From Cenococcum geophilum 1.58 (Eukaryota; Ascomycota; Dothideomycetes; Gloniales; Gloniaceae), in NCBI GenBank assembly GCA_001692895.1, contig KV748245.1, positions 310,001-374,000 on the forward strand: a stretch of 64,000 nt of DNA, in the 5' to 3' direction. The notes below the pieces were generated by a model that saw only the letters and a list, made by a program, of their open reading frames with translations, ran no database searches and had not been told where the DNA came from. The position numbers and the translations under genes were made by a program. This document shows positions 11,598-60,677 of the stretch, piece by piece. Each line of letters starts with the position of its first letter. Within the stretch, counting starts at the first letter, position 1.

Positions 11598-11789
11598 GGA
11601 GACCTTGGAGCTCTTGCTGCACCTAGCCTAAAAAGACTAAAAACAACTAAAAGAACCCTGAAAAATATCTAGAGAATCCCCCTAAGATGCATGCATTGTA
11701 GGGGAGGCATACATTAAACGACGGTGGTTCGCACTCGCGCGCGTCCACTAGAACTACGCCTAGTAATGGCCCTCTATAATAAGAATGGG

Positions 11790-12960
11790 CGAATACTATA
11801 CTATAAAGCGGAAAGACCTTTATTAAAAAGGCATCTAATAAAATATAAAGCCTATTGGACGTGTCTAGTATCTATAGTTACGGGGGAGTAACCGTTAGCT
11901 ATAATAAACTAATATAGCTAGTAGAATGGCTCCGCTAATCTAGTAAACCTTAGGCGCCCCTTTAGTAAACCCTTAACTAAATCCTCTAACGGCTAAGTAA
12001 AATTAAAAATAAATAAAACCCCTTCTTACCAACGAACCGCACTTAGGCCGCTGTAGCTGCGCCTCTACAGCATAGGGAGCCTACCCCCCTAAAGATAATA
12101 TCCGGATATATAATTATAATATAACTAAATATAGAGAAAGCAGAGGGGCTTAGGGGATAATTAAAAATAGAAGTTCTTATAGAAATTCGTAAAGAGGTCT
12201 ATAACGCTATTATAGTCTAATACCTTAGGAGTAGAGATATTAGAGTTACCCTAAGGACTAATAGGTAAAGGAATAAGCTATAAGGGTAGGGGATAAGCTA
12301 GGAGAACGTATTAGTATAAAAGTGCTCTATAAAGATTACCTAGTTAAAGTCCTAGCGGTTCCCCTAAGCCTTAGGGTAGAAAAGGGACGCTAGGCGGATA
12401 ATATAGTAACTATATATAAGATAGTAAAACAGACGGAACGCCTTATACTAGGACTTAAGATTACCTAAATCTAATAGCTTTAATAGGAAAATGTAAACTA
12501 AGTATATAATAAGAATAATAAAAGAATATAAGGGTTGCCAAAGACTTACTAGGGAGACGCCGGTTAAACGCATAGCTCCCTTATTATTAGCATATATATA
12601 CTAGGAATATAAAAACTTCTTATCCAAAAAGGTATTATTATAAATGGCCTTATATATAACGCAAGGCTCTATAACTATAAACTCCACTTAAAATAATACT
12701 ACCGCTATATATAATAGGGACACATCTAATCCATATACGCAGTATAGGTGTGCTATAGCCACTATATAGGCCCCTACAATATAAGAAACTGCTTAAATTA
12801 AGATTAAATAAAATATATAAACTGCCACTAAAGTATATATAAGGCGTAGAAGAAAGGAGACTGTATTAAATACAGGAGATGGAAGGTAAGGGCTTAATAG
12901 CTATAGGAATAACTGCACGCTAGGTTATATAAATAAAAATAATAGGCGATAAGCTAGGGG
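11790..12960 (+). pseudogene. LINE A ORF1 (nucleic-acid-binding protein)
   Basis: The reading frame resembles fungal Tad-clade ORF1 proteins: a charged central region and a cysteine/histidine-rich zinc-knuckle segment at about 12735-12845. ORF1 proteins bind the element RNA and form the ribonucleoprotein. Multiple stops make it non-functional. The same region on the minus strand is seen in copies B and D. Confidence 0.6.
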
Positions 12961-13439
12961 GGCATAGGTACCTTTTTAGCATTTCCTACCTTTAATACTA
13001 GGGGGCTAGGCCAGCCATCCCAAGCCTTAATAGGCTAGAAGTAACGCTACGCGATATTACTAGACTATATAGGGATATAAGGGTTATAGGGGATATAAGG
13101 AAGAGGACGCCCTATAGGAAGACTATTATAGACAGCTATAGTAAGCTTAAGACTAAGATAATTAAGAATTAGACTTAATACGGTAAATATAACATTTATA
13201 GCCGACTTTTAAAGGGTATATAGCTAACTAGTAAGAATAGGGGAGGAACCGGAGATAATAACAGATTTAGATATAAAAGCGCTACTAGGAATATAAGATA
13301 TGGGAATAAAAAGCTTTATATAAAATAAGTAGTAATTAGGATACAGATATAAAAGACAGAAGCTCTAAATGTCCTAAAGAAAGTGGAAATAGAGGAAGTA
13401 AGGAACAAAGGAGAGGCGAAGGACCCCCACTAGGGGTCC

Positions 13440-16400
13440 GCCACCTATCTATTATATAGTATAACTACGGTAACATAAACCACTGTCTTATAAGGCCCTT
13501 ACTAGACAGCTTAGACTTAGAGAAATACTACATCCTTACTATATAAGAGCCGTATTATAATGCCTATATATAATTAACATACTGCCCCTAAGAATTCCAG
13601 CTCCTATATAAACCAAAAGCAGCTACACGCGTATACTTTATAATTAGTAAGGCTATCAGCCTATCCTTATAGTTATAGCAGGCAATTAACCTAGATATTA
13701 TAGTTATAACAATCTAGATATATAGGGGACTGGTATAGATTATTAATATATATAACCCTAGGGTTAAAGGGGTCCTATAAACAGAGAATATTATATTAGT
13801 AATAAGCTTACTAGAAACTAAAGGTATAGAGTTTATCCTATTAAGAGATATAAACCTCTATTACCCGTAGTAAGGGGGTATCTATATTGCTGCTAAATAA
13901 TAGGTAGAGTGCCTACTAAAAGCTATAGACACCTAGGGCCTTAAGCTAGCTACCCCCCTAAAAGCAATTATATGGCAATAAGGTACTACCAGAAGTATAA
14001 TTAACCTTATATTTATAGACGAAGGCCTATACTAGAGACTTAAAAGGTGCAACCCTAAAGAAGAATAGACACTTGCTTTAAACTATATCCCTATCTAAAT
14101 ATAGTTAAATCTAAATATTAAGGCATAATTAAATAGCAAAAGATACGTAATAAGAAAGCTTAAGATAGACAGCTTTTTTAATACAGTTAAATAACAACTT
14201 TAAGACCTAGAAGAAATCCACCTAATACCAAATAAGCGAGGCTTAGTAGCTACCCCTAAGGAAATTAACTAAAGACTAGAAAGGATCTAGGTAGTAATTA
14301 AAAATAGGTTAGAAAAGCACTACCCAATCTTAAAAGCGGGCCCCTACGCGCAATATATATAGTCCGTATAATATACAGTTCTTATTACCAGCTAATAATA
14401 AGCAAGAAGAAAATATATAAGTAGCTATAATCCTAAAGATAAGAGATATTATAAAGACATAAGAAACTAGCTAAAGAATACCCTAAAAAGAAAAGTAAGG
14501 AATAGCTAGAGACGGTTTATAAATAAGTATACTACTAATTTAAGCCTCCCCTATAATAAAGGTCTTTAAAAGATAGTAAAATAGGTAAAGAGAAAGGCAG
14601 GATATCTAGTAGAAGACCTATACCTTCCGCCCTTACGAAGACTAGGTAAATCACTAGCTATAAGTAATAATAATAAGAAGGCAAAAATCCTTATAAAAAG
14701 ATTCTTCCCTTAACCAGCTTTAGTAGACCTTAGCGATATTACGGGTAAAGCACTGGTAACTCGCCTAAGGGTTAACAGTGATATAACAACTAAAGAAATA
14801 GCCAGAACTATTAGCCGCCTTTTAAATAATATAGCATTAGGATTAGATAGGATCCTAAATAAAGCCCTAAAGACCTATAGACTACTAATAGCACCTTAGC
14901 TTGCAGATATAGCTAGAGTATACTTTATAATAGGCTACTACCTAAGACTTGGAAGAGCTATAACAACGTTTATTTTATGTAAAGAAGGTAAAGCAGACTA
15001 CTTATTTCTAGGGAGCTACCGCCCTATTGCCTTAGAGAATACCCTTAATAAGATCTTAGAAAGGGTAATAGCGGACTATATAGCAGACACGGTAGAGAAA
15101 CACGCCCTACTACCACAAAGCCAAATAGGGGCAAGAAAGAACCGCTTAACACTATTAGCACTTATACTACTCGCTACCACCATTAAATTAGTATAGGCGA
15201 TGCGAAGGGACTTTATAGTATTAATGCTCAGCCTAGATATTAGTGGCGCCTACAACAACGTACCCTATAAGCGTCTCCTATATATCCTTAGAGTAAAAGG
15301 CTTCCTAGAATAGATTATATAATTTGTTTAAGGGTTTATAGGCCAAAAAGAAATATTGCTAGTCTTTAGCAGATACTAAAGCCCCCCTATTGCAGTTGCA
15401 ACAGGAATACTACAAGGATTACCCCTCTCGCCTATACTCTTTCTTTTCTTTATAAGCAACCTACTTAACTCCTTTAAGGAAGGGGCGACCTAAAGAATAG
15501 GCTTTATTAACGATATAAACCTAATTATATACGGGCTAATAGCCGCAGAGAATTGCAGAACGCTAAAGAAAGCTTATAACACCTATATAGAATAAGTAAG
15601 ACAATATAAAGTCTAATTCTCACCAGAGAAGTACCAGCTAATCCATTTTATAAGAAAACGCAACTAATTTATAGATCTTTAGTATATAATTCACATCTAA
15701 GGCTTTAGGGGTTAGCTAGTTTAGGGCCTAAGAGTATTAGGAGTATAGGTAGATAATAAGCTCCGGTGGAGCGTATATGCGGCTTAAGCAGCCTATAAGG
15801 GCCAAGCATAGTATATTGTATTATCTAGGATTATTAATTCCACATAGGGTCTATACTTTTAAAGGTTACGCCTATTATATATAGCAGTTATCTAGCTAAC
15901 CATAACGTATAGGTCTAGTATTTAGGCCATTAGAGAATCTAAAAAAGGCCCCCCTAAATCGCTTCTTAAGCCACTCTAAAAGGTCTAAATAGCCTACCTT
16001 TAGAGTATAATAGGCGGATATAAGCGAACGGCCACAGCACTGCTTAAGAAGGAAGCTAATATTCCCCCCCTATAACTATATATTAAAGCCACTATAATAT
16101 AAAGGGCGTAAAAGGAACGTAACTTTAATATTATAAAGTATATTATAATACGCCTAAATAAACTATAGAGGGACCCTAGGGCGCCTTATAGGAGAATAAA
16201 CTAATAACCCTAAAGTAGGGAAGATATATTAAAGAAACAGGTAAAGAAAGTAGAAGAAGAATAGTGCTACTTTAGGGCCCAGGCCTATATAGAGGAGAAA
16301 GGGAGACGCGTAAGAGGCTAGTAAGGATAATAGGAAGAGAGAGAAAAGAGCTAAAGTAAAGTATAAAAGAACGCTAGGAAACTAACTACCGTAATATAAT

Positions 16401-16800
16401 ACTAGCTAGACTAACGCTAGAGAGGCGTATAGGAGTTAAAGGTATAGAGGCTAACTAAGGCAAGAAGAACCTAAGCCGTAGTATAGTTAACGCTATAGGG
16501 GGTAAATACTTTAGGGCTCTAAGAAGGCCTAATAAAGGTAAAAAATATAATAGCAATACTCTTAAAAACAGGAGTAATAGGACTAAAAAACTGGCTCTAC
16601 TGGGTAGGTGTTTTAGTAGGTAGCCTAAGATGCGAATATGGCTGGCTAAGATAAATACCAAAGTATGTAATACTGCTATACCCCTTACGTACTAACTAAG
16701 AAGTAATACTCTTAGTAGCTGGCATAGAGAACTATAAGACACTACTTTTAATATAAAAAGGCCTTAAGGCGGTTACCTAGTGGCTTATTAGCTAAAATAT
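13440..16800 (+). pseudogene. LINE A ORF2 (endonuclease and reverse transcriptase)
   Basis: An apurinic-type endonuclease domain covers about 13450-14060; the segment reading RDINLYYP marks its core. Reverse transcriptase follows at about 14900-15640, with recognisable SYRPIALEN and a GLPLSP-type motif (15418-15435) and a degraded FADD-box equivalent near 15510. The C-terminal 1.1 kb (15640-16800) is well conserved among copies A, B, C and E and probably held the C-terminal part of ORF2. The frame is broken by many stops. The combination endonuclease plus RT is that of non-LTR elements that nick and prime at their target. Confidence 0.8.
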
Positions 16801-17160
16801 ACTAAACTAGTTNNNGGTTNNAANGGAAATAGTAATAAANGGTANNNGGGNNAGNAACGGGNGCCCNNTAATNACTCTATAGTAGTAGAGTAAAGTTTAC
16901 AATACTAGCGCGTCCGTAGGCTTGTTACGGCAGCAGTGGTTCCTAAGAAGGTTAAAAAGTAAGGTAGTAGGAGCACTATAGGTGACTCGTAGGCGCCTTA
17001 TAGGCGCCTTATAGGCAAGTCCTAAAAGGCGGGGAGATAGATTACGGGGTTTTCTTAAATAGAGTTTTCTCCCCATATATATATAAGGAGTAGTCTGCGT
17101 GGGCCCAATAGGGATCCGAATTAGACGTTAAGCAATGAATTATTATTAATTACTCTCCTA

Positions 17161-21114: not shown

Positions 21115-24100
21115 ATAATAATAATTCATTACTTAACGTCCGATTCGGATCCCTATTAGGCCCACGCGGACTTCTCCTTATATACATGTGGGGAGAAAAC
21201 TCTATTTAAGAAAACCCCGTAATCCATCTCCCTGCCTTTTGGGACTCGCCTATAAGGCGCCTACGAGGCGCCTACAAGTCACCTGTAGTGCTCCTACTAC
21301 CTTACTTTTTAACCTCTTTAGGAACCACTGCTGCCGTAATAAGCCTATGGACGCGCTAGTATTGTAAACTTTACTCTACTACTATAGAGTTATTAGGGGG
21401 CGCCCATTACTTACCCCCCTACCCTCTATTACCATTTCCCTTATAACCTGGAACTGGTTTAGTATATTTTAGCTAATAAGCCACTAGGTAACCGCCTTAA
21501 GGCCTTTTTATATTAAGAGCAGTATATTATAGTTCTCTATGCCCGCTACTAAAAGTATTACTTCTTAGTTAGTACGTAAGGGGCATAACAGTATTACGTG
21601 TTTTAGTGTCTATTTTAGCCAGCCACATTCGCATTTTAGGTTACCTACTGGGATACCTACCTAGTAAAGCCAGTTTTTCAGTCCTATTATTTCTATTCTT
21701 AAGAGTATCGCCATTATATTTTCTGCCTTTATTAGGCCTTCTTAGAGCCCTAGAGTGTTTACCCCCTATGGCGTTAACTATACTACGGCTTAGGTTCCTC
21801 TTGCCTTAGTTAGCCTTTATACCTTTAACTCCTATATATCTCTTTAGTGTTGGTCTAACTAGTATTATATTACGGTAGATAGTTTCCTAGCATTCTTTTA
21901 TACTTTACTTTGGCTCCTTTCTCTCTCTTACTATTATCTTTGCTAGCTTCTTACGCGTCTCCCTTCCTCCTTTATATAGGCCTGGGCCCTAAAGTAGCAT
22001 TATTCTTCTTCTACTTTTTTTACCTGTTTCTCTAATATGTCTTCCCTACTTTAGGGTTATTGGTTTATTCTCCTATAGGGCGCCCTAGGGTCCCTCTATA
22101 GTTTGTTTAGGCGTGTCTTAATATACTTTATAATATTAAAGTTATGTTTATTTTGGGCCCTTTATATTACAGCGGCTTTAATATATAGTTATAGGGGGGG
22201 AATATTGGCTTCCTTCTTAAGCAGTGCTATGGTTGTTTGCTTATATCCGCCTATTATACTTTAGAGGCAGGCTGTTTGGACCTTTTAGAGTGGTTTAAGG
22301 AGTAACTTAAGGGGGCCTTTTTTAGATTCTCTAATGGCCCAAATACTGGACCTATACGTTATGGTTAGCCGGACGACTGCTATATATAGTAGGCGTGACC
22401 TCTGGAAGCATGGGCCCTATATAGAGTTAATAATCCTAAATAATGTAATGTACTATACTTGGCCCTTATAAGCCGCTTACGCCATATATACGCTCTATTG
22501 GAGCTTACTGTCTACCTATACTTCTAATACCCTTAGGCCCTGAACTAGATAACCCCTAAAGCCTTAAATGCGGATTATGTGCTAGAGATCTATAGATTGG
22601 TTACGTTTTCTTATAAAATGGATTAGCTGGTATTTCTCTAGTAAGAATTGGACTCTATATTATTTTGCCTATTTTATATAGGTATTATAGGCTTTCTTTA
22701 GCATTCTGTAATTCTTTACGGCTGATGGCCTGTATATAATTAGGTTTGTGTTATTAACGAAGCCTATCCCCTAAGTCGCCCCTTCCTTAAAGGAGTTAAG
22801 TAGGTTGCTTATAAAGAAAAGGAAGAGTATAGGCAAGAGGGGTGATCCTTGTGGTATTCCTATTATAACTATAATAGGGGGGCTCTGGTATCTACTAAAG
22901 ACTAGTAATATTTCTTTCTAACCTATAAACCCTTGGATAAATTATATAATCTATTCTAGGAAGCCTTTTGCCTTAAGGATATATAGGAGACGCTTGTGGG
23001 GCACGTTATTGTAGGCGCCGCTAATATCTAGGCTGAGTATTAATACTACGAAGTTCCTTCGCATTACCTATGTAGATTTGATAGTGGTAGCGAGTAGCGT
23101 AAGTGCTAATAGTGTTAAGCGGTTCTTTCTTGCCCCTATTTAGCTCTGTGGTAGTAGGGCGTATTCCTTAGCTGTGTCTACTATGTGGTCCGCTATTACC
23201 TTTTTTAAAATCTTACTAAGGGTGTTTTCTAGGGCAATAGGGCGGTAGCTTTCTAGGATTAAGTAATCTGCTTTACCTTTTTTTTATAGGATAACCGTTA
23301 TTATAGATCTTCTAAGTTATAGGTAGTAGCCTATAGTAAAGTATGCTCTAGCTATATCCGTAAGCTAGGGTGCTATAAGTGGTTTATAGGTCTTTAAGGC
23401 CTTATTTAAAATCCTATCTAGACCTAGTACTATATTATTTAAAAGGCGGCTAATAGTTCTGGCTATTTCCTCTGTTGTTATATCGCTGTTAACCCGCAGG
23501 CAAGTTACCGGTGTTTTGCCCGTGATATTACTAAGGTCTACTAAAGCCGGTTAAGGGAAGAACCTTTCTATAAGGATCTTTACTTTCTTATTGTTATTGT
23601 TAGTGGCCTATAACTCCCCTGCTCTTTATAGGGGTAGTAGGTATAGGTTTTCTGCTAGTCGCCTTACCTTTTTCTTTACCTATTTTGCTATGGCCTATAG
23701 GCCTTTATTATAGGGGAGGCTTGGGTTAAAAGTGTGCTTGTTTATAAATCGTCTCCAGTTGTTCCTTGCTTCTTTTTTTAGGGTATTCTTTAACTAGTTT
23801 CTTATATCTTTATATCGTCTCTTATCTTTAGGGTTATAGCTACTTAAGTATTTTCTTTTTGCTTGTTATTAGCTAGCTATAAAAACCGCGTATTATGCGG
23901 ACTATATGTATTACGTATAGGGGCCCGGTCTTAAAACCGGGCAGTGCTCTTCCAGCCCATTTTTAATTACTGCCTAGATCCTTTTTAGTCTTCGGTTAAT
24001 TTCCTTAGGGGTAGCTAATAAGCCTTACTTATTTAGTATCGGGTGGATTTCTTCTAGGTCTTAAAGTTATTGTTTAACTATATTAAGGAAACTGTCTGCC

Positions 24101-26699
24101 TTAAGCATCCTTATTATATATCTTTTACTATTTAATTACGCCTTAATGTCTAAATCTAGCTGTATCTAGATAGGGATATAGTCTAAGGTAAGTGCCTATT
24201 TTTTTTTAGGGTTGTACCTTTTGAGTCTCTAGTATAGGCCTTCGTCTATAAATATAAGGTCAATTATACTTCTGGCGGATCCTTATTGCCATATAATTGC
24301 TCTAGGGGGGGTGGCCAGCTTAAGGCCCTAGGTGTTTATAGCTTTTAGTAAGTACTCTACCTATTGTTTAGCAGCGACGTAGATACCCCCCCACTGCGGG
24401 TAGTAGAGGTTTATGTCTCCTAATAGGATAGACTCTATGCCTTCGGTTTTGAGTAAGCTTATTACTAATATAATGTTCTCTGTTTATAGGACCCCTTTGA
24501 CCCTAAGGTTATATATATTAATGATTTATACCGGTCCTCTATATATCTAGATTATTATAACTGTAATATCTAGACTAACTGCCTGCTATGACTATAAGGA
24601 TAGGCTGATAGCCTTACTAATTATAAAGCATATGCGTATGGCTGCTTTTGGTTCGTATAGGAGCTAGAATCCTTAAGGGCAGTATGTTAATTATATGTAG
24701 GTATTATAGTACGGCTCTTATATAGTAAGGATATAGTATTTCTTTAGGTCTAGACTGTTTAGTAAGGGCCTTGTAAGACGGTGGTTTGTGTTGCTACAGT
24801 TATACTATATAATGGATAGGTAGCGGACCCCTAGTGAGGGTCCTTCGCCTCTCTATTGTTCCTCGCTTCTTCTATTTCCACTTTCTCTAGGATATTTAAA
24901 ACTTCTATCTCTTATATCTGCACCCTAGTTACTACTTATTTTGTATAGAGCTTTCTATTCCTATATCTTATGTTCCTACTAGCGCTTCTATATCTAAATC
25001 TATTATTATCTCCGGTTCTTCCCCTATTCTTACTAGTTGGCTATATACCCTTTAAGAGTCGGCTATAAATGTTATATTTGCCGCGTTAAGTCTAATTCTT
25101 AATTATCCTGGTCTTAAGCTTACTATAGCTGTCTATAAGGGTCTTCCTATAGGGCGTCCTCTCCCTTATATCCCCTATAACCCTTATGTCCCTATATAGT
25201 CTGGTAATATCGCACGGCGTCGCTTCTGGCCCGTTAAGGCTTGGGATAGCTGGCCTGGCCCCCTAGTATTAAAGATAGGAAACGCTAGAAAGGCACCTAT
25301 GCCCCCCTAGCTTATCGCCTATTGTTTCCATTTATATAACCTAGCGTGCAGTTATTCCCATAGCTGTTAAGCCCTTACCTTCCGTCTCCTATATTTAATA
25401 TAGTCTTCTTTCTCCTATGCCTTATGTGTGCTTTGGTGGCAGTTTATATATTTTATTTAGTCTTGGTTTAAGCAGTGTCTTATATTATAGGGGCCTGTAT
25501 AGTGGCCGCAGCATACCTATGCTGCGCATGTAGATTAAGTGTGCCCCTATTATACGTAGTAATAGTATTGTTTTAGGCGGAGTCTATAGTTATAGAGCCT
25601 TACGTTGTATATAAGGCTATTTATAATAATACCTTTTTGAATAAGGAGTTTTTATATTCCTAGTGTATATGTGCTAATAATAAGGGAGCCATGCGTTTAA
25701 CCGGCGTTTCCCTAGCAAGTCTCTAGCGACCCTCGTATTTTTTTATTATTTTCGTTATATGCTTAGTTTATATTTTCCTATTAAAGCTATTAGATTTAGG
25801 TAATCTTAAGTCCTAGTATAAGGCGTTCCGTCTGTTTTACTATCTTATATATAGTTGCTGTATTATCCGCCTAGTGTCCCTTTTCTACCCTAAGGCTTAA
25901 GGGAACTGTTGGGACTTTAACTGGGTAATTTTTACGAAGCACTTTTATGCCAATACGTTCTCCTAGCCTGTCCCCTACCCTAATGGCTTATTCCTTTACC
26001 TATTAGTCCCTTAAGGTAACTCTAATGTCTCCGCTCCTAAGGTATTAGACTATAATAGCGTCGTAGACCTCTTTACGAATCTCTATAAGGACTTCTGTTT
26101 CTAATTATTCCCTAAGCCCCTCTGCTTTTTCTATGTTTGGTTATATTATAATTATATACCTAGATATTGTTTTTAGGGGGGTAGGTTCCCTATACTATAG
26201 ATATATAGCTATAGCGGCCTAGGTGCGGTTCGCCGGTAAGGAGGAGTTTTATTTATTTTTAATTTTGCTTAGCCGTTAGAGGATTTAATTAAGGGTTTGC
26301 CAGAGGGGCGCCTAAGGTTTACTAGACTGGCGGAGCTATTCTGCTAGCTATATTAGTTTGTTATAGCTAATGGTTACTCCCCTATAACTATAGATACTAG
26401 ACGCGTTTAATAGGCTTTATATTTTGTTAAATACCTTTTTAATAGAGGTCTTTCTGCTTTATGGTGTAGTATTCGCCCGTTCTTATTATAGAGGGCTATT
26501 GCTAGGCGTGGTTTTGGTGGACGCGCGCGAGTGCGAACTACTGTCGTTTAACGTGTGCCTCCCCTACGATGCATGCATCTTAGGGGGATTCTCTGGGTGT
26601 TTTTCAGGGTTCTTTTGGTTGGTTTTAGTCTTTTTGGGCCGGGTGCAGCAAGAGCTCCAAAAGGTTCTTTAAATATATATATAAAAAGATGCCTTATTA
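21115..26699 (-). mobile_element. LINE B: Tad-like LINE, nearly full length
   Basis: This reverse-strand copy of the LINE A family lies between 14-bp target duplications ATAGAGCTTATATA (21101-21114 and 26700-26713). The 3' end is at the left (ATTCATTACTTAACGTCC with an (ATT)n tail) and the 5' end at the right (GGAGCTC near 26660, plus about 40 bp of extra AT-rich sequence before the target repeat). It aligns with LINE A from end to end, including endonuclease, RT and ORF1. It has fewer obvious stops in some stretches than A but is still broken. It separates the two coding regions of Gypsy-2. Confidence 0.88.
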
Positions 26700-48244: not shown

Positions 48245-48562
48245 TGCTAGTTATAGAGAGGTCAGGCATAGGCGTAGGCGTTTAGCGTTAGTAGTTACTA
48301 CGCAGCTTAGTAGTATAGAGGTAGAATTATAGCCTCTACTGCGGCGACTTCCTCTTAATATTATATAGGTATAAGGAACTAAGGATTATAACTTATAGAG
48401 TAGGCTTTTCTCTGCAATTTAATATCATTTTTATATTAATAGGTATTATAGGAGGGTAGATTAATTTCGTTAAAGTTAATAAGGTCTTCTTATATAAAAT
48501 GTGTTTATTCCCATATCCGCAATCGATTTCAAAACGGAATCACGTGTAACCTTACTAAGGTA
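48245..48562 (-). mobile_element. Head-to-head end fragment of the 12-kb transposon family
   Basis: Read in reverse, this fragment matches the left 250 bp of coding and leader of the 12.1-kb element (48723-48960 and beyond). It ends CTAAGGTAA, the complement of the element end TTACCTTAG. It therefore is a truncated second copy pointing away from the large one, with about 25 bp between the two ends. It lacks the hairpin-forming segment present next to the end of the large copy. Confidence 0.75.
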
Positions 48563-48587
48563 AAGCATGCAAGTCACTCGTCTTTGA

Positions 48588-48607
48588 TTACCTTAGCGAG
48601 CTCAGAC
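48588..48607 (+). repeat. Left terminal inverted repeat
   Basis: The sequence TTACCTTAGCGAGCTCAGAC pairs with the complement of 60649-60668 with one mismatch. The 9 bp before it (CGTCTTTGA) is the target duplication. Confidence 0.85.
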
Positions 48608-48835
48608 TAAGAAATCGATTATGCGGATATAGGAATATCCGCACCGTCCGCTAAGCTGATTTAGGACGGCAATCGTTTTCTTGGTCTGAGGCACTTTGGC
48701 GAGCTTTATAGAAAACCTAAATATGGTTTATATGAGAAGACCTTATTAACTTTAACAAAATTAATCTACCCTCCCACAATACCTGTTAATATAAAAATTA
48801 CACCAAATTATAGAGAAAAGCCTACTCTATAAGTT

Positions 48836-51557
48836 ATGAGATCTTTAGCTCCTTATACACGCGCAACGTTAAGAGGAATTCGTCGCCGTAGAGGCCCCAA
48901 TTCTACCTCTACACCGCCGAGCCGTGCAGTAAACACTAACGCTAAACGCTTACATCCACGCCGCCAGCCCTCTGCACAGCCAGCGGATATTCTAGCGGAT
49001 ATTCCAGCGGATATTCCATCTACCAGTCGGACAAAGATATCAAAGGAAGAGAAGGTTAACATCGTAAAGGACCTTCTATATTAATGGGGCTGGTCTTTTC
49101 GCAGGCTAATCTTTAAGTACTTAGAAAGCGAGAACGGGCATAGAGGCAATAGGAAGAAGAAGAAAGTAGGGGACCTGCTTATTACTTTACTAGAGGAAAA
49201 GGAAATATAAGAAGAGCTTATTAATAGGGCTGAAATTCATATAACACTAGTAACCTCTATTACCCGCTATATCCGGAAAGAACTCCACCAACTATAATTA
49301 TAACGCGGCCCCTTTAACACATAGACTCCAGATATAGAGTTTTAGGATATTAACCTTAAGAATACGGCCCAGTTTATTCAGTAGCACGGTCCGCTACTAT
49401 TCTAGCTTATTAAGGGGATATCCGCACCAAATAGAGAGGAACGTAGTTGGGATCCGCATAGCGGACGTATAGTTATAGTTGCCTCTATATTCCTCCTAGG
49501 GTTTACCTAAAACTCCGCAAATAGTTTCGCCCGTCTACTTAGTCTATATCTTTAGGCGCTTAGTATAAAGCGCTATATACTGTCTTTCCTATATAGCCTT
49601 AGTCTAATTAATAGTTATAAAACTCTTAACGCTAAAAAGCTTGGGCTAGCTAAATATTCTAAGGAAGGTCCTATTAATTCTAATGGCCCTTTTAACGCTA
49701 ATAACCCTTAAGAAACTAATTAAGTCTCTATCTATTTATAATAATGTCTGCATTATTTATAATAACTTTAACTATTACTAAAAGACTCGACATTAGGTTA
49801 TCGGCAAGATTGGTAAGTTTAATTTATATACTACGGGAAAGATTTTACGCGGAGTCTATATGCCTAAAGGGGGCCTTAAGCAGTCAATGCTAAATAACAC
49901 CCGTTAACTTAAGCTAGATGAGGTTGTTAATACAGCTAGGAATAAGTTTAATAACCTTTAGAAGCGGATATCTATAAGTTTTATTACGGACGCCATCCAA
50001 TACGCGTATTCTACTGCAGTTAATAGTATATTCAACTCTAACGCGGATATTAAATATCCGCGTATACCAGCAGTTGATATTCTCCCTTATAAAAGGACAG
50101 AGCATATAACTCTAGGACCTATTCTAGATAGCGAGGCTTCTATTAACGGTAACTATCGCGTAATAGAGAATATCTTCCTAGAACAACTATAGTATAATCA
50201 CGAAACCGCTTTTAACGACTAGCTTTTCCTAGTATACGAAGATCAGAAAACCATAAAGCTTATCCAATTATACAAAGAGGAGCGGGTTAAGGCGGAAGGT
50301 GCGTACGATAGCCATAAATAGGTGTTGCCTATTCCAGGGCTATGGTATATGCGATTAAACTTCCTATATATAATTATGCGTACGTTCTATAGGGGTAAGG
50401 AAGCCGCGTAGCAGTTTTTAGCGCTTTACGCCTATATAAACCACCTAAAACGGCGCAATATTCCTAGGGAAAAGGCCCTGTTTTATTATATAGAAGAGCT
50501 AATCCTCCAAAGCTTTAACGCTTATGTTATTGCGTTGTTTCTACTCCATATCCGCAATAAGTGCAACATTAAGGTAGATGGTGAGGCTAAGCGATATATA
50601 CGAAACCTATCTCCGCAGCAATTTCTAGAGTATATTAAGGATATCCGCACAGTAGCTTTTTTAAGAGATGTATACCGCGATGCAAATCAGCGCTTAAAGC
50701 CACCTGCCAACGCACGTTAGCTAGCAGCAACGTCGTCCTCTGCGGGTACATTAAGCTCCGCCGCTAATAACTATAATACGAAGTTCTTTAATCATATCCG
50801 GTTCTTATAGGTTATTAATACTTATAAGCTTCTAAAATACGCCATTAAGTATACGGATATTGGACTACTAAAGCGTATAATCCCCCGCCTTTGCTTATAC
50901 TTTACTAGAAGCTTATTAAAGAACTATACATATAATATACTGATCCTATAGCAACTAGTTGGAACAAGCGCTTATAATCCAGTGCTTTAACGGGCTATTC
51001 TTACTAATAGTTTAGTTAACCTCCAAGGGCAGCCAGATAGCTTCTTTAAGACGGATCGCCTTAATAAACTACTAAATCTTTAACTTAAGGAGTTACTCTA
51101 AACGCGCGGGAATTTAACGTTTGGCATAGACAAGCTGTTTAAATAAAGTGTTCTTATAATAAGTTATACTAGCGCACTCCGCGATATTTTTAAGCGTATA
51201 TTTAGTAAACGTATAAACAGCGAACATATAACTAAGTCTCTAGCGCTAGATATCCGCTATCTTGCAGATTAAATCAGGAAGGATTTAATTATGCAATATA
51301 CGCGGCGCTCGGCGGATTTTAAGGCTCCTTTACTTCTACAGCGTGGATATAAGAAACTCGCAAAGGACGGCGTAAATACATTTAACGCCTTTCTATTAAC
51401 TACAGCCGGTTTGCCATTTAATCCCCTTATATGCAGCTTTAGTAATACTAATAAGAATATAGAGGTATTAGGGGAAGCTGCTAAATATATTTACATAGTT
51501 TGTTATCCTAATATTACACCTATACCTCTGCTAATATATATAATAGTTAGTATATAA
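48836..51557 (+). pseudogene. DUF6589-like protein, candidate transposase
   Basis: Counting interruptions, the forward frame runs about 900 codons. It opens with an ATG and an Arg/Pro-rich, basic N-terminus (residues 1-70), then a helical region. A core follows that resembles DUF6589 proteins: a segment around 49500-49650 about narrow-length helices ending in a Ser-Tyr-Lys-Thr motif, a VYNNFNYY segment with RHQVIG near 49760-49800, and GGLKQSMLN near 49880. C-terminally a segment near 50980-51120 reads like the NLVNLQG...FFKTDRLN... region of that family. Stops are common, nearly all TAG or TAA at likely glutamine positions, with a few short frame problems. DUF6589 proteins are abundant and often repeated in fungi. 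Their role as transposases is plausible but, to my knowledge, not proven. The assignment is from memory of the family. Confidence 0.6.
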
Positions 51558-51930
51558 GTTGCTTAATAAATGCTGAGAGTAACAGTAATATATTGTTTTA
51601 ATTGCGGATATACTTCCATTGTGCGTTAGCGTATATAGGACGTTAGGTTTAAGGCACCTACTATTCTTTAACTTAGATTAAAGCGGCTCTTATAAGGCGG
51701 CATTACTGATTTTAATATGCGGATGTCTTATATTAGCGGTTTATTATATAACCCTTATAAGGACGGATTTAATAAGGCTACGGATAATATGCTAGAGGAC
51801 TTTTAAATACTTAGGCTTTTAGTACATTTCTGTCTTAATATATTAATCGAGTTCTTTTTATTAATATTAACTCTAGCCGGCGTATAATCTTCTTAGTGCA
51901 TAGTATATAACATAGCAGTAGGCTGTTTTG
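51558..51930. other. Between the forward gene and the duplicated unit
   Basis: The sequence is AT-rich and mutated, with two GCGGAT-type words. It may contain the 3' part of the forward gene or a further exon, since faint coding character persists to about 51800. Confidence 0.4.
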
Positions 51931-51934
51931 TAGT

Positions 51935-53880
51935 GCAGATATATAAATATCTATATCTTAGCTTATACGGATATCTTCATATTAGCTTACGCGGATATCG
52001 TTATCTTAGCTTATACGGATATTATAATATTAATTAAGTATATCTATTAAATATAAGGCAGAGACTTAATTCCTATATATATAGTAGTAAAAAGGTATAA
52101 GCTACTATTTTATTATTATAAACTAGCAACAATAGCCAGCCCGCAGCAATAGCTAACTTATATCTACCTATATTTGATATCCGGTAGCCCAGTATTACAT
52201 ATAAGCGCAATAACACCACGCCTTAGGAACGCAAGCTCATCCTTTATCTCACTTAGAGAATCTTTAAACTCACTAAACTAGCAATCTATAGCTTAAACAT
52301 CTTTCGCTATATTAGTTACCTATTTATAAACTATATTAACGCGCGCAGAAATAGCGATTGCTAAATACACCCTAATAGATTCCGTGCCAGCGGAAGCGGT
52401 AGCAGTAACGGCAGCACCTAGCGTGCTAGCAATTAATAAAAGAGTTAGAGGAGCAGCGGCAAAGCAAGTGCCTCTACGGCCGCGTATACTACTATAAGTG
52501 GGAGTCTTAATAGGAGGGAAGGTCTTAGTAGGGGGAGGCGTAATAGTGCAGGTGGGGATGGTGCGAGAACGAAGCTATATGGATATTAGCAATATCCGTA
52601 TTATTAACACGCGGATATTATACCTTCTTAGTAGGCGTTTCGGCTGAACTATTAGCAAAAGCTAACTTTATACATTTTTTACGCTAAAGTATAACCGGCT
52701 CTAAATCTAGTAAACTTTCCTATATGCGTATTAGCTGACAGAATAATAGTATACTATTAGCACGTACCTTTCCGCATAACCTGCCACCTATATAATATCT
52801 TAAGCACGCACCCCTAAAATAAGGCCCAGAGTCCTTCTTATAAACGCGACATTCGTAGCTATACTTCTCGCATAGAGTATATAGCGGGTTGCGCAGCTTA
52901 CCAAAGCTACCCTCAATATTCTAAACGTGTGTTAATATCCGCTGGCGGCTTTCCTTTATGTTCTCCCAAACACCAGCTTTTAGAATATACCATTTATTCG
53001 CTAACGGCACTTGGATAGGAAGGCGCTCGTTTATGTTCGTAGTACTGCGGAGATTATAAAGGCTGCGGAGATTACAAGGGCTGCGGAGATTATAAGAGTC
53101 GGCGTTATTAAGATCTTCATCTTTGCCGCTGTCTAAAGATTCGCTATCTAAAGAAACCTTATAAATGTTTAGGTTACTATAAGAGGTAAATTAGTAGATA
53201 AGACATTAAAACAGTATAACTAACACATACGATTTAATAGCTATCTTGGCCTTTAGATTCATATCAGTAGCCTTTTTAGCCTACTTTCTAAGAAAAGAAG
53301 ATAAACGAGCCTTATTAAGCCTCCTTTTAGAAGCATTAGGTGGCAGTAGCAGAAAAGCAGATGGTAAAGAAACTAATAGCAAAGTGGTTTACGGCAAAGA
53401 TGTAGGTAACGGAAAGGCAGGCAGCGAAAAGGTGCGCGGATTTTTAGCGGACTTCGCTCTATCTATATTTTTGTCGTTTACTAAATCCTATAAAGAGCGC
53501 TTTGGTATATATTTTCTAAAATCACATTAGCTATAGGCACAATTTAGTATTAGAAAGCTTACTCTTTAGGAATAAAGTCTAAAGGCTTAGTAAAAGCAGC
53601 CATGGCGTGCTTAACAGCATCCTCGTTCACTTCGCGTATATTAAGTTCCTTAACTACCTAGCTACTATTATTTGCATTAATATCGTTTACAGGTGTAAAT
53701 AAAGGCATCGCAGACAGTAGAACGCTAAGGGATAGTAAATAAAATAACAATAATAAAGTTTGCGGTGCGGTGCTATAAGGTGGAAGGTTAGTAGAAGAAA
53801 AGGTGCGGAGGTTAATTAAAGGTAAATATCTACGCTACTAATTTTATTAAATTAGCTTACTAACAAATAACTGCTACTAT
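51935..53880 (-). pseudogene. Duplicated unknown gene, copy 1
   Basis: This unit of about 1.95 kb is a direct duplicate of 53907-55840. On the reverse strand it begins near 53710 with MPLFTPV and reads a short acidic N-terminus, a probable small intron after IPKE, then a Leu/Pro/Ser-rich basic region. About 0.7 kb further on, a cysteine-containing segment (YSYECRVYKKDSG, then GAC and RLCGK, near 52780-52880) follows. Four cysteines spaced this way could bind zinc, but I do not recognise the domain. The forward 94-codon frame at 53246-53530 is a shadow of the Leu/Pro-rich part. The gene is RIP-damaged. Confidence 0.5.
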
Positions 53881-53906
53881 AATAACTTACCTTAGTAATT
53901 ATTAAC

Positions 53907-55840
53907 GGTGCGGATATATAAATATCTTTATCTTACCTTATATAGATATCTTCATCTTAGCTTATACGGATATCTTTATCTTAGCTTATACGGATATTAT
54001 AATATTAATTATATCTATTAAATATAAGGTAGAGACTTAATTCCTAAGTATATACGTAGTAGCAGAGAGGTAAGAGCTACTATTTTATTACTCTAAACCT
54101 ATAATAACAGTTAACCCGCAGTAATAGCCAACCGGCATCTACTTAAATTCTATATTAAGTAACCCGGCGTTACGTATAAGTGCTATAATACTACGCCTTA
54201 TAAACGCAAGCTCATCCTTTATCTTACTTAAAGAATCTTTAAGCTCACTTAACCAGCAATTTATAGCCCAAATATCTTTTGCTATCTTAGTTACCTACTT
54301 ATAAACTATATTAACGCGTATAAAAACAGCAATTACTAAATACACCCTAATATTTTCCGTACTAGCGAGAGCGGTAGTAGTACCAGAAGTAGCACTAGGC
54401 GTGCTAAGAATTAGTAAAAGAGTAAGAGGAGCGGCGGCGGAATGGGTGCCCCTACGGCTGCGTATATTACTATAAGTAAAAGTCTTAGGGGAAGGGGAGG
54501 TCTCTAGAGGGGGGATGGTGCGGGTACAAAGCTATATGGATATCAGCAATATCCGTATTATTAAGATGCGGATATTATACCTTCTTAGTAGGCGTTCCAG
54601 CTAGACTACTGGCAGAAGCTAATTGTGTATATTTTTTACACTAAGGTATAACCAGCTCCAGTTTTAGCGAACTATCCTATATACGTGTTAGCTAATAGAA
54701 TAATAGTATACTATTAGCATATACCTTTTCGTATAACCTACTACTTAAGCAATATCTTAAGCACGCACCTCTAAAATACAACCTAGAGTTCTGCTTGTAA
54801 ACGCGATATTTATAGTCTTACTTAACGCATAAAGTGTATAGCGGATCGTATAGTATACTAAAGCTACCCTTAATATTCTAGATATAGGTATATATCCGCT
54901 AGCAAGCTTCCTTTATATTCTCCTAAGCACCAGCTTTTGGGGTATACTATTTATTTACTAACGGCACTTAAATAGGAAGGCGCTCGTTCGTATTAATATC
55001 CAATATTATAGCTTAGGCCGTCTGCGTACTGCGGAGCTTGTAAGAGCTATAAAGATTATAAGAGGATAGAGGAGGGCTTTTAGGAGAGTCGGTGTTATTA
55101 AGGTTATTCTTTTTATTGTTATCTAAAATCTCTAACATTTCTATTGGGTTACTATAAGAGGTAAATTAGTAGATAAGATACTAAAAGAGTATAGTTAACA
55201 CATACGATTTAAAGGCTATCTTATACTAAACATTTTACGCAGTAATTCTGTTAGCCTGCCTCTTAAGAGAAATAGAAGCATAACGAGGATTAAACTTCTT
55301 AGAAGTAGCAGGCGACGAAGAAACAAGCGGCTTAAAAGTAGGCGGCGAAGAGGTAAGCGGTAAAGAAGTAGGCAGCAAAGAGGTAGGCAGTAAAGAGGTA
55401 AGCGGATTTCTAGCGGATTTCGCAATAACCTTATTATAGTGCTCTGCTAGATCTAATAAAGAGTGCTTTAGTACGTATTTCCTAAAATTATATTAGCTAT
55501 AGGCATAATTTAGTATTAAAAAGCTTACTCTCTAGGCAGAGATTCTAAAGGATTAGTAAAAGAAAGAGCGTCCTTAAAAGCGTCCTTAATTATTTCATCA
55601 TCAATGTCGCGTATATTAAGTTCCTTAACTAAATAGCTGTCGGACGTATTTAGAGGTATAAAGGAAGGCATTGTAGATAGTAGTATACTAATAAACAGTA
55701 GATAAAACAATAATGATAAAGTTTGCGGTATAATGCTGTAAAGTAAAAGGTGCGGAGGTTAATTAAAGGTGAATATCCACGCTGCAGATTTTATCGAATT
55801 AGCTTACTAACAAATAATCACTATTATAGTGACTCACCTT
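53907..55840 (-). pseudogene. Duplicated unknown gene, copy 2
   Basis: It aligns with copy 1 throughout, including the leading GCGGATAT and repeated CTTATACGGATATC words at its left edge and the AACACATACGATTTAA block. The reverse frame starts MPSFIPLNTSDSYLVKELNI near 55674 and shows the same VKELNIR segment as copy 1. The two copies have diverged by well more than RIP-type changes alone (small indels, substitutions), so the duplication predates inactivation. It is located between the forward gene and the helicase. Confidence 0.55.
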
Positions 55841-55899
55841 AGTAAATATCAACTACCTTTTATACAACACTTAAACTGAATGGCTAATATAATATAGGT

Positions 55900-58800
55900 T
55901 CTACGGGTTTCGGGAGCTTTAGGTATAAACCTTAGTATCTCTCTAGATAAGAATCTAATAAACTATTTAAATACGTATATGGAGATCGACACTTAACACC
56001 CGGATATTAATTAGAGCTCTGCCCGAGTCTTAGTTAAGTTAACAAACAAATAGAACGCCGAGGAATATTGAATACCAACCTGCTAAAGCTGCGTCATATC
56101 CAAAACCAAGGGCGGAGATTAAGCACTAGGCTACAGGTTCTGAGCTGCGCTCAGTTTAGAAAGCAGAGATTAAATATTAGACTGCAAATTCTAAGCTGCA
56201 CCCAATTTAGAAGGCGGGGATTAAGCATTAGCACGCGAATTCTAAACTGCGCCCAGTTTAGAGGGCGGAGATTAAGCATTAGCCTGCAAACCCTAAGCCT
56301 TAGAGTTTCCTAGGAGCGGAGATCCAGTATTATAACTTAAATCCTAAGCCTTAGGATTTTCTAGGAGCGGAGGTCTAATACTGCGTTGCGAATTCTAAAT
56401 TTCCGGATTTCCTACTACCTAGGAACTGGTGCTACGCCACGGATATTAAACTTTAGAATTTTTTATAATCAGAGGTCCAATGCTATATTGCGAATATTAA
56501 ACCTTAGGCTTGTCCGAAAGTTAAGACTTAGTAGTACACTATAAGCTCTAATACTTAGGCTGCCCTAAGGATTCGAATTTGATGCTACGCTGTAAGCTTT
56601 AATATCCGGATTGCTTTAAGGGCTAAGACCTAATGCTGCGCTGTAAGCTCTAATATTCGGCGTTTTAGCCGCGGCCCATTTATACTTGTATTGCCACTAA
56701 TATTAGCAAATAGACGTCTCTGCGTCTTTTTTAAGGTCATACTACTAGCTAGTGCAGTACTAAAGGGGAAGATTAGCTGAAGAGACTGGCTTAGAGTTGT
56801 ATTGGCACTAGCTATATAAGTAGAGGTAGTACTTCTTACTTAAGCAGAGCGGCGGTAAGTGCTAGATTTACCTCTAGTTAATTCTACCCACTAGAAGGGA
56901 GCTAACTCTATAATCGTTAATACATTAGCCCGTAAGTCTACGCGTTGGGATAAGCTTCCTAACCGCACTAGTAAGCTACCAGGCGAAGCATACGGTTGTT
57001 AAGCACTAGTATATAGTTGGTCGGACAAACTATTTAAAAGCCGCTGTAAGCGACAAGCCTAGGTTAATAGATAAGCTGCCGAACTACTATACCAACCCTA
57101 TAGATATCCGTCCACACCCGCCGCATAAGCTAATTCCCTTCTAGTATCCTACTACTAAGTTGCTATAGAGGGTGCCGTAATGCGGCAGTTTGCCGTCGCC
57201 GTTGACACTAGATTACTATAGATTGCTACTAATAACGGACTATTGCCAGCAGGATCATTAATAAGGCCACGTTAATTCGCAATAACCGCACGCGGAGATT
57301 GCTGCGGAGATTAAACACCACGCTGTGAACTAGCGCCACCTATATTTGAGCCAATAATACTATTAAACCTCTGCTGCGGAGCTTAAGGGCTACACCACGG
57401 ACCAACACCTAGGTTATTCTGAGATATAAACTAAGGCAGCAGAGAATCGTGAGGATCGTGCGGAGCTATATTAAGAAGCTGTTAGGAACAATGAAGGCGC
57501 TGCGGGGAGTTATTAGGATGCTAAAGGTCAAGTTAAGGGTTCTGCGGATATACACTAGACGATTTTTAAGTAGGTAGCCGTGTATCTAGAGTATACGGAT
57601 ATTAAACATCTAGCTATTAAGATGACTGCGATAGAGTGGCATGCGTAGTCTGAGACCAGTTCGCCTATAAGTCTTAGGTTAATACAAGCTAAGTTTTTTA
57701 AGACTTAGTTATATCCGTTTATAAGCTAAATACTAATAATAGCTATAAGGGCGGTAATACTTCGGTTTGCAACGGTTAATTAAGGCTAGTACTCTTTATA
57801 GTTAATGTACTAACAGGTCCCTATTAACCCACTAATAGTAGAGGCGTCTATAATAAGCTTCTAGATATAGTAACACATCTACTAGATTGCGACGCAGCCT
57901 ATAAGACGCTAGTACTAGAGTATTGCGTTCCTTCCTTATAAATAAAGCGGATAAGCGCATCTACTTTATCTCCTAGGAAGCTATAATCCCATTTAGGTAA
58001 TATTCGCTTAAGGCCCTTATAAGTTAGCGGAGGTTAAATATAGAGCATGCGGATTTAATTATCAAATATAATATAACTGGAAATTGGACTTTAAACTACA
58101 TCCTAGTATATTATATTAAGCCATCCTTTAATCCACTTCTTAACACTTATAAATAGATCCTTTAAGTACTTGCTCTTTATAATATTCCTAGTATATAGTA
58201 TAATAATATTATACTCCTTATAAGCCTATAATAAATTATTATAATTAGAGCAATAGCGTAGACCTCTAGATAACGGACTCGTCTCCTTATATAGCTTAAG
58301 TAGAATATTACATAGACATCTAGTAGCTTTATTCGCGAGCTCGTATAATATATCTAGAAGTACCACCCGTTTCTCTGCATTAGTCTTTACCCTCTTCTAT
58401 TTTTCTATATACTTAATTAGCAGGGCTAATGATGTTATATTCTTATTAAGTATTTAATCCTTCTCCTCCTAAGTAGATACCTGCGAGATAATATCACTGT
58501 TAATTATAATGAATAAAGCCAGATCGCTGGCGAAATCCGCTACCCTATCCTCCTATATCGCCATCCTAGCAGCAATAAAGTTACGGCCGAGTCGGGTAGA
58601 CAGAGGGGCTATAGGTTTTTAAGACTTTCGCTTTAGCAGTATAATATCCGCAAAAGCGCCCTTATACCAGTCTTTAATAAGGATAATTGTATATCTGGTA
58701 ACACCGTTGCGTTAAGCGACCTGTCTAAATCGCTGCAGTATTATATTTAGGCTTTTATTAGGATAATAACCGTATATAATAGAACGGATAATATCTGGAA

Positions 58801-60300
58801 TATCCGCACTATAGGCTAGGGCGTCCGACGTAATAAGAATGCGGGTAGGTAAGTCTTCTATATAGAAATTTTAATACTCCCTACTCTTGTTACATTTGGA
58901 TAATATCGCATAATAACTCCGCACTGCTATTTTAGCTTACTTTATAGTATAGCCCTTAGTTATAAGCCACAAACGGATTATGTTCAGACACCTATAGATA
59001 TAATTTTTAGCATAAAGAAAGATAATCATCTTAGGAATTAATTTAGGGCTTAGAACCTTTCGTCCCTTTAGCTATATAGTACCTCCTACCAGATTTTAGA
59101 TCTGCCCGACTAGTTAATAAATAGAGGTAGCGGGTATTTAACTAGAAGATACGGATATCCTACTAGGCGCTACGGGCGTTTAGCTGGATAATGCGGATAT
59201 TTTACTAGACCCTACAGATATCTGGCCAAGGGTCGTAGATATATAATCCTCCTCTACTACCGCCTCCTTAAATGCCTCTTTAATAACAAAGAATAGTGCC
59301 TTATAATTATTCTTATCCCTCCTTTTAATATAGCCCCTAATAATAAATAGGTCAGGCCAATTAATATTTATTTATTTAAGATCCGTTATACTCCAATAAA
59401 ACCCCACTAGCTTTATTACCTTTATATACGTCTCCTTATTAAGTATTACAGTATATATAAACTACGGCACTATTAGACTAAGCAGTGATTGGACCTTAAA
59501 AAGCTATACGTAATAGGGCCGGAAGCTCTTACCCTAGTTAGCAACTAGATAACACTTATTAATTATAACTAAGAAAATATGTAAGCGAAAAGTAGGCTAA
59601 GTAAGGATATAGTGGAACCGTTTACTTAATAGCAACTCTGGCAATACTAGAATATACGTAAACCAACCCGCCTTAATATATTTTAGGATATCTATATACG
59701 CTTTTATCACCTCCGCACATATAAATACGGGATTTACTTCTAGGATGGCCTATATTTTTAACAGCTGCTCCTCTCTAATTACGTTTAAAGGCAACACAAT
59801 AATAGCAACAGAAGCTTAAATTAGTAATGGAATCGCCTATATTATTATACTCTTACCCTATAATATCTTCGCCGCCAGGAACAAGTCCCTCCGCCTATAC
59901 ATTACCCGTCTTAACACCTTAATTTAACTAGGTCGTCCGCTATACGGATATAGAAGCTTAATAGCTCTATCTATTAAGCTTAACTGTTTATCTTTACTTA
60001 CCTCCTATAAGGCTAGAAGCTTATCTTATACGTCCTATAACTGCCTCTTTACTAGGGACGTAAGATCCTCCTATAAACAATTATCTAGCTCCCATAAGCT
60101 CCGCAAGACCTCCTGGCGTTCCCGTTTAACTATGGTCTTCTAACCCCGGCGGCTAGTGCTTTTCTTCCGAGCTATAGTGGGTTTTTTATGCGGATATAAC
60201 GCCTAGTAGTAGTAAAGGCACTCTAGGCTAAGGGAGGATATTTTTAAGGAAGGACCTAACTATAGCACCTACTAAGTATTGCAATGGCTTTAAGTAGTAA
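55900..60300 (-). pseudogene. RecQ-like SF2 helicase gene
   Basis: On the reverse strand a long frame from about 60300 to 55900 keeps helicase order. There is a Walker A region near 59880-59850 (RRDLFLAAK then GKS), a PLNVIREEQ segment, a SPEL-like segment and a degraded DECH box near 59580-59540 ending GKSFRPYY. A C-terminal helicase domain follows near 58920-58640, with TRILITSDALAYSADIPDI and a QRF...QRNG motif VI equivalent. This matches RecQ-like DEAD/DEAH helicases such as those found in fungal transposons and telomere-linked helicase genes. The C-terminal third is low-complexity and glutamine/serine/proline-rich. Stops are numerous and mostly at glutamine positions. The likely role was unwinding DNA during element movement or replication, which is inference. 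Confidence 0.8.
56080..56690 (-). repeat. About ten degenerate 60-63-bp repeats in the helicase C-terminus
   Basis: Units with core GGCGGAGATTAAGCATTAG and a CTAAACTGGGCGCAG-like segment recur every 60-63 bp, decaying to the right. In the helicase frame they spell a 20-21-residue repeat with SPPSKLGA at its heart, likely disordered. The unit length divisible by three and glutamine-position stops support the reverse strand as the coding one. The 81-codon forward frame over this region is a shadow. Confidence 0.7.
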
Positions 60301-60648
60301 ATATCTATATATCTGTATAGTTTTATCTATATTAGCAGACTATTTAATAAGATATAATATATGCTTATACTTTTAATAACGCGTTTTTTAACTTTAACGA
60401 AATTGATGTCAGGACTGAGCGATAGCCGTATTATAAAATTCGTACTATTTAGAAGCCCTAGTTCTTAAAAATATTGTATTAACTTTTAGTAATAATAACG
60501 CGTTATATAAATGAATGAATTAGATATCCGCAATATCCGTTTTACGGATTTTGCTTATGCTTTTAACAAAACTCGCCAAAGCCTCTCAGACGTGATTTTG
60601 CAATTCGGAAGACGGCGTAGGTTATTCCGATGCTAGCTAAAAAATCGC

Positions 60649-60668
60649 GTCTGAGCTCGCTGAGGTAA
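60649..60668 (-). repeat. Right terminal inverted repeat
   Basis: Reverse complement of the left end with a single T/C difference. It is followed directly by CGTCTTTGA (60669-60677). Confidence 0.85.
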
Positions 60669-60677
60669 CGTCTTTGA

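Follow-up and report, generated by a model that had tools for sequence, protein, structure and literature searches.

A probable AcademH-type DNA transposon pairing a DUF6589 protein with a RecQ-like helicase in Cenococcum geophilum

What kind of DNA transposon couples a RecQ-like helicase to a protein with DUF6589, a domain whose function Pfam lists as unknown, and duplicates 9 bp of its target? This question is raised by a 12,081-bp element at positions 48588..60668 of a 64,000-nucleotide stretch of the Cenococcum geophilum 1.58 genome (contig KV748245.1, positions 310,001 to 374,000), which we call the window. An earlier sequence-only reading had described the element as a DNA transposon carrying these two proteins and had suggested that it could represent an undescribed superfamily or lineage. 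The domains, recurring borders and gene linkage reported here support the first part of that description. We consider it quite likely that the element is an autonomous copy of an AcademH-type cut-and-paste DNA transposon in a filamentous ascomycete, inactivated by repeat-induced point mutation (RIP), with the DUF6589 protein as its likely DDE-type transposase and the RecQ-like helicase as a constant partner.

Borders, copies and target-site duplications

Both borders of the element consist of inverted ends with a direct repeat outside. The left terminal inverted repeat (TIR), TTACCTTAGCGAGCTCAGAC (48588..48607, + strand), and the right TIR, which reads TTACCTCAGCGAGCTCAGAC inward (60649..60668, − strand), are each 20 bp long and complementary at 19 of 20 positions, leaving one mismatch. 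Directly outside them, at 48579..48587 and 60669..60677, stands an exact 9-bp target-site duplication, CGTCTTTGA, which is assigned to neither strand. The near-perfect inverted ends and exact repeat claimed from the sequence alone are therefore borne out. The scanned genome has 177,193,698 bp in 162 contigs, of which C70 contains the window. With up to three mismatches allowed, the TIR was found at 801 places (396 + 405), compared with three (2 + 1) for a reversed control pattern, ruling out chance TIRs. A 33-mer from the left end occurs 30 times and one from the right end 189 times, with no occurrence of the controls.

For the window's family, A, and a sister family, A', we counted 22 pairs of left and right ends: 17 from the 33-mers, the A' element on C75, and four whose ends BLAST located in extracted stretches of sequence (L022 with two, L025 and C36 with one apiece). 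The 17 come from the 30 left-end 33-mer places and are those paired with a right end among the 100 listed of the 189; the other 13 have no listed partner. L023, L026 and L027 were left out of the count, and at eleven of the 22 pairs the ends alone were read. Fourteen pairs are flanked by a perfect 9-bp duplication, four by one with a single transition, one by one with two transitions, and one, at C26, by a perfect 10-bp duplication; two have none. Among the BLAST-placed pairs, the duplication matches at 8/9 positions on C36, at 7/9 in L025, and at 9/9 in one L022 element whose tip was set one base in by eye. The sequence-only reading had proposed looking for further copies with the same borders, and these borders do recur, mostly with 9-bp duplications.

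Six of the pairs span about 12 kb (the window, C1, C4, C10, C17 and C81), others are intermediate in size (C75, 10.9 kb; C26, 9.5 kb; C36, 4.7 kb), and four span 18-32 kb (C1, C23, C28 and C46), presumably due to nested insertions. The remaining nine, at 1.4-2.2 kb, are short forms. One of them, L024, retains 307 bp at the left and 467 bp at the right, so the element ends appear to suffice in cis. A second complete copy lies at C1:2007448-2019540 (12,093 bp); it is 91% identical to the window element and flanked by a perfect 9-bp repeat, TGCGAGGTC. In a DNA search with the whole element, five of 814 candidates were scored.

The window and C1 copies differ across 12.1 kb by 1033 transitions, 2 transversions and 12 gap columns. 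Strict CpA/TpG changes account for 531 of the transitions, and a further 188 have a neighbour that itself varies. This divergence is RIP decay, and because almost nothing but transitions separates the two copies, they were nearly identical at insertion and decayed later. The window copy carries many stops, its DUF6589 protein reads N at the first conserved acid and Y at the conserved H, and the DE of helicase motif II reads NK; this copy is dead, inactivated by RIP. The list of open reading frames in the window holds none of 120 aa or more that overlaps the element.

Open frames for both proteins survive in the sister families A' and B. The A' element (C75:754919-765805; 10,887 bp, 34 bases of which read N) has the same gene order as the window element and little RIP. 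Its TIR begins TTACCTCAGCAAGC, it is flanked by a 9/9 duplication, CAAGAAACA, and it holds open frames for a DUF6589 protein (629 codons) and a helicase (1184 codons), with a second open frame ahead of DUF6589. This element is nested in a RIP-decayed copy of a further family, B, and an uninterrupted B end at C41 represents its empty site: the flanks of A', once joined with a single CAAGAAACA, match it over 280 bp, gap-free, at 92%. A paralogous empty site, also proposed as a check by the sequence-only reading, was thus found for the A' insertion; for the window element, the joined flanks matched only the two flanks themselves in the genome.

Family B, about 6.4 kb long as pieced together from overlapping copies, contains just the convergent pair, a DUF6589 protein of 939 aa and a helicase of 854 aa, between the TIRs TTGACTCAGCATGCTCAGAC and TTGTCTCAGCATGCTCAGAC, and its borders are sharp where independent copies diverge. 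We sought family-B ends at nine copies; five had both ends and were counted, and four (C88, C77, C22 and C72) had one. The duplications of the five match at 9/9 positions (C5 and C31), 8/9 (C28) or 7/9 (C40 and the C75 host of A'), every mismatch being a transition.

We compared 53 family-B-type helicase matches (424 candidates) with 102 scored DUF6589 matches (274 candidates), both counts being lower bounds. Thirty-four of the 53 helicases lie within 15 kb of a scored DUF6589, where chance would predict about 2%; 33 of these are convergent with it, and 30 of the 34 are separated from it by 593-754 bp. We therefore reject the explanation that DUF6589 and the helicase are separate host genes. 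The sequence-only reading had named such separate genes, or copies with different borders, as findings that would speak against its pairing, and the pairing survives both.

Eight near-identical, stop-free copies of the family-B helicase all lie at contig ends (C9, C42, C74, C149, C88, C70, C41 and C43). The window's own contig is one of them, beginning with such a copy at 90-2651. A subtelomeric location was considered and rejected: no telomere repeat was found within 500 bases at the two contig starts checked (C9 and C43), and on C9, C42, C74 and C149 the family-B matches have identical coordinates from the first base. It is likelier that these are identical copies that the assembly did not separate, and they are likely young copies that have escaped RIP.

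The candidate transposase and its helicase partner

The DUF6589 protein of the window element, the likely transposase, is encoded at 48836..51554 on the + strand, with start and intron placed by inference, and is broken by RIP. The PF20231 domain within it (49977-51206, + strand) is matched on this strand at E 2.4e-44, and across 573 aa the protein shares 73% identity with P0006. Its relatives carry names from Ilyonectria, Fusarium and Metarhizium, all Pezizomycotina, and together with the RIP-like decay they indicate a filamentous ascomycete as host. To describe conservation we aligned 92 DUF6589 proteins out of 120 listed, with fragments and some long rows excluded. An acidic D within a YDNF-like motif is found in 25 of the 25 rows having a residue there (N in the window copy, at about 49761, + strand). 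The D of a GDQ motif is invariant (92/92) and is followed 35-38 residues later by an H, also in 92/92, and further on D407 (92/92) and E411 (91/92) are conserved. The first two D residues are 155-175 residues apart, and 223-332 residues separate the second from D407. The conserved order, as sequence motifs, is D, D, H, D/E, a layout that we read as a predicted DDE core with an insertion.

We find it most likely, on this motif evidence, that the DUF6589 protein is a DDE-type transposase. It is the best transposase candidate in the element because neither the helicase nor the third, Zn-finger-like unit described below carries a nuclease or transposase domain by Pfam, and because there is no room for the third unit between the gene pair in the family-B copies on C9 and C43. 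The assignment of DUF6589 as a likely DDE-type transposase is a new proposal, and it would assign a role to a domain that has at least 102 genome matches over the cut-off. Scans of viral contigs with the DUF6589 protein and the helicase found no relative of either.

The helicase gene lies on the opposite strand (56086..60133, − strand), is likewise RIP-broken and ends in a long repetitive tail. A Pfam search of its read-through gave Helicase_C alone, below the cut-off (E 0.06), and two other Pfam scans of the window gave no helicase match. Against PDB, the read-through has 22 matches (best E 3e-5), 21 of them named WRN, helicase Q5 or RecQ and one named 'ATP-dependent DNA helicase'. Its near open-frame relatives are P0001, P0002, P0003 and P0004, some of them partial. 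Both DEAD and Helicase_C are above the cut-off in P0001 and P0002, which are 71-74% identical to the window helicase, and P0004 aligns gap-free across 58987 to 56633, so that the gene is one long exon over this stretch. The family-B protein also has DEAD and Helicase_C above the cut-off. Its 51 PDB matches are led by RecQ (best E 8e-20); the best 37 are DNA helicases, nearly all RecQ, WRN, Bloom, Q1, Q4 or Q5, and the remaining 14 are RNA helicases at E >1e-4. The reverse-strand SF2 helicase noticed from the sequence alone is thereby confirmed. Within the C-terminal tail, five 51-bp tandem units lie at 56112-56366, and the tail repeats of the open-frame copies are rich in S and Q.

Placement among transposons with helicases

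The suggestion of an undescribed lineage had started from the premise that AcademH elements make 3-4-bp duplications. This premise is wrong: the Discussion of PMC10045372 gives duplications of 9 or 10 bp for AcademH and of 3 or 4 bp for AcademX, and its authors tie the difference to the helicase of the former and the nuclease of the latter. AcademX, the other lineage within Academ, differs from our element on both counts. A passage of PMC10799480 names AcademH and KolobokH as a source of DEAD and Helicase_C domains and reports AcademH, at low copy number, from Ascomycota and other phyla. The duplications of the window family (mostly 9 bp, one of 10 bp), the helicase with its two domains, and the host all match these descriptions, and we therefore place the element by anatomy, with AcademH compared by description only, as most likely a new AcademH family. 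What had been a possible new superfamily gives way to a placement that can be tested.

Several observations weigh against this reading. The placement presumes a kinship of DUF6589 with the Academ transposases. AcademH is described as low-copy, whereas hundreds of ends are present here. A profile search of PDB with DUF6589 returned three matches at chance level (E 0.08-0.2). No duplication flanks two of the 22 A/A' pairs, at C48 and at one L022 element, and L023 has facing TIRs without a duplication and is otherwise dissimilar to the element. The family-B helicase matches the NCBIfam recQ_fam model at E 5e-30 with 104.7 bits, under the curated cut-off of 219.8, so we call the helicase RecQ-like and not a canonical RecQ. 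Finally, 19 of the 53 helicases stand more than 15 kb from any scored DUF6589, which is not proof of separation because both match lists are lower bounds.

The Pfam scan of the 92 DUF6589 relatives belongs with these points: among the first 25 of 38 families listed, DUF6589 is the sole family matched by more than two relatives, and no other credible shared match was found. This speaks for a separate, undescribed superfamily, in which the DUF6589 transposase would be unrelated to Academ, the 9-bp stagger would have arisen by convergence and a RecQ-like helicase would have been captured. In the same direction, the residue three before the invariant H is G in 48, A in 41, S in 2 and D in 1 of the 92 relatives; G or A thus occupies, in 89 of them, the C/D position of the C/DxxH signature that PMC9587614 describes between the second D and last E of hAT, P, MuDR, Kolobok and Dada. 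DUF6589 is also not named in the open-access literature searched, an absence that is weak evidence and does not extend to Repbase or subscription journals. We regard a separate superfamily as unlikely, since AcademH, as described, already combines an equal duplication length, a DEAD/Helicase_C helicase and ascomycete hosts.

Two known superfamilies share single traits with the element. KolobokH, according to PMC9587614, encodes a RecQ helicase and is known only from fungi, and like our element it is a fungal DNA transposon with such a helicase. The same source gives Kolobok 4-bp TTAA duplications and 5'-RR..YY-3' ends, whereas here the 9-bp duplications vary and the termini are TT..AA; the C/D position of C/DxxH is D in 1/92 relatives; and the helicase gene converges on that of the transposase rather than lying downstream. 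We reject KolobokH as highly implausible. The duplication length would suit a Mutator-like element with an acquired helicase, MuDR/IS256 duplications being 4-10 bp in PMC10045372. Neither the element's scanned frames nor the families listed for the 92 relatives (the first 25 of 38) include a MULE domain or any other known transposase domain, and a Mutator origin, also rejected, is very improbable. A Helitron is rejected by the presence of TIRs and of a duplication.

For an AcademH-type element, we propose that the DUF6589 protein would bind the ends, each a TIR plus the palindrome described below, and excise the element, then insert it into target DNA with a stagger of 9 bp (rarely 10 bp), giving rise to the duplication. 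The convergent RecQ-like helicase would probably act at the palindromic ends or insertion gaps, where it would open or resolve the DNA. Because A' and B have open frames, the ends are defined and an empty site is available, the question of why some DNA transposons carry a helicase becomes testable.

Palindromic ends, modular cargo and surroundings

The left end of the window element forms a 90-bp palindrome (48601..48690) in which the TIR core CTCAGAC recurs as an inverted copy, GTCTGAG, giving a paired stem, with a folding z-score against shuffled sequences of -6.5. The right end has the same design over 71 bp (60585..60655; z -2.6). All six ends examined in A, A' and B carry an inverted repeat of the TIR core, in palindromes of 71-94 bp with z-scores from -2.6 to -9.9. 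Outside the core, the two arms of an end agree at 11, 11, 14, 13, 15 and 6 of 19 positions (mean 11.7), compared with an average of 5.4/19 and a maximum of 12 for arms of different ends, and up to 10 double changes separate pairs of ends. This pattern supports selection on stem pairing in most ends. Palindromic ends whose stems change sequence yet mostly stay paired are new here and the least expected part of our results.

These stems could fold into hairpins or cruciforms and need the RecQ-like helicase to open them, the element moving through a folded-end intermediate in place of plain double-strand cutting. We consider this idea rather unlikely. The recurrence of the inverted core, the stems that fold better than shuffles and the agreement of own arms over foreign ones speak for it. 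On the other side, the right end of B pairs weakly when its arms are matched without gaps (6/19, with 427 of 2000 shuffles as good), though its z-score is -7.7, the right end of the window element is moderate, with 5/200 shuffles folding equally well, and paired protein-binding sites would give the same picture, no intermediate having been seen. A fuller scheme, in which DUF6589 + RecQ-like elements move via co-evolving folded ends that their own helicase opens or resolves before the DUF6589 DDE core cuts with a 9-bp stagger, is a little less likely still. If true, it would amount to a form of cut-and-paste transposition that depends on a helicase, and DUF6589, an uncharacterised domain present in many ascomycete sequences, would gain a function. 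The covarying palindromes are a concrete target for the helicase question.

Between the two enzyme genes of the window element lies a third unit, a 2-kb tandem duplication on the − strand whose copies (51933..53906 and 53908..55853) are 74% identical, in keeping with the duplicated unit noticed in the sequence-only reading. In the C75 sister copy, the unit carries a Zn2Cys6-like motif, C-x2-C-x6-C-x14-C-x2-C-x6-C, with spacing counted by eye. Pfam gave sub-threshold matches only, the best being Zn_clus (E 0.013); in the window copy, Img2 reached E 0.033. The unit would be an optional, probably DNA-binding, cargo of this branch of elements.

In one of the two duplicated units, 281 transitions and 17 transversions separate the window element from A'; in the other the numbers are 272 and 15, and over 570 bp of the helicase tail they are 82 and 4. 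A 688-column stretch of the transposase gene, in contrast, shows 128 transitions and 93 transversions. The few transversions in the block and helicase tail and the many in the transposase gene point to recent exchange: the duplicated block (window 51615-55856, compared with L063) and the helicase tail were probably exchanged recently between elements with long-diverged enzymes.

Related ends are also found side by side. At L026 (G000:C6:1974000-1975200), two right-type ends are set back to back and share the 9 bp, TAGGGCTTG, that separate them, as if one element had inserted at the duplication of another. Just left of the window element, at 48400-48570, lies an inverted, diverged relative of its left end with a TTACCTTAG-like tip; the element landed beside a related element. 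Elsewhere in the window, a 5.5-kb inverted pair (11605-17148 and 21116-26660), 87% identical, consists of decayed retrotransposons, and the read-through of 11605-17148 contains an RVT_1 reverse transcriptase domain (E 5e-18).

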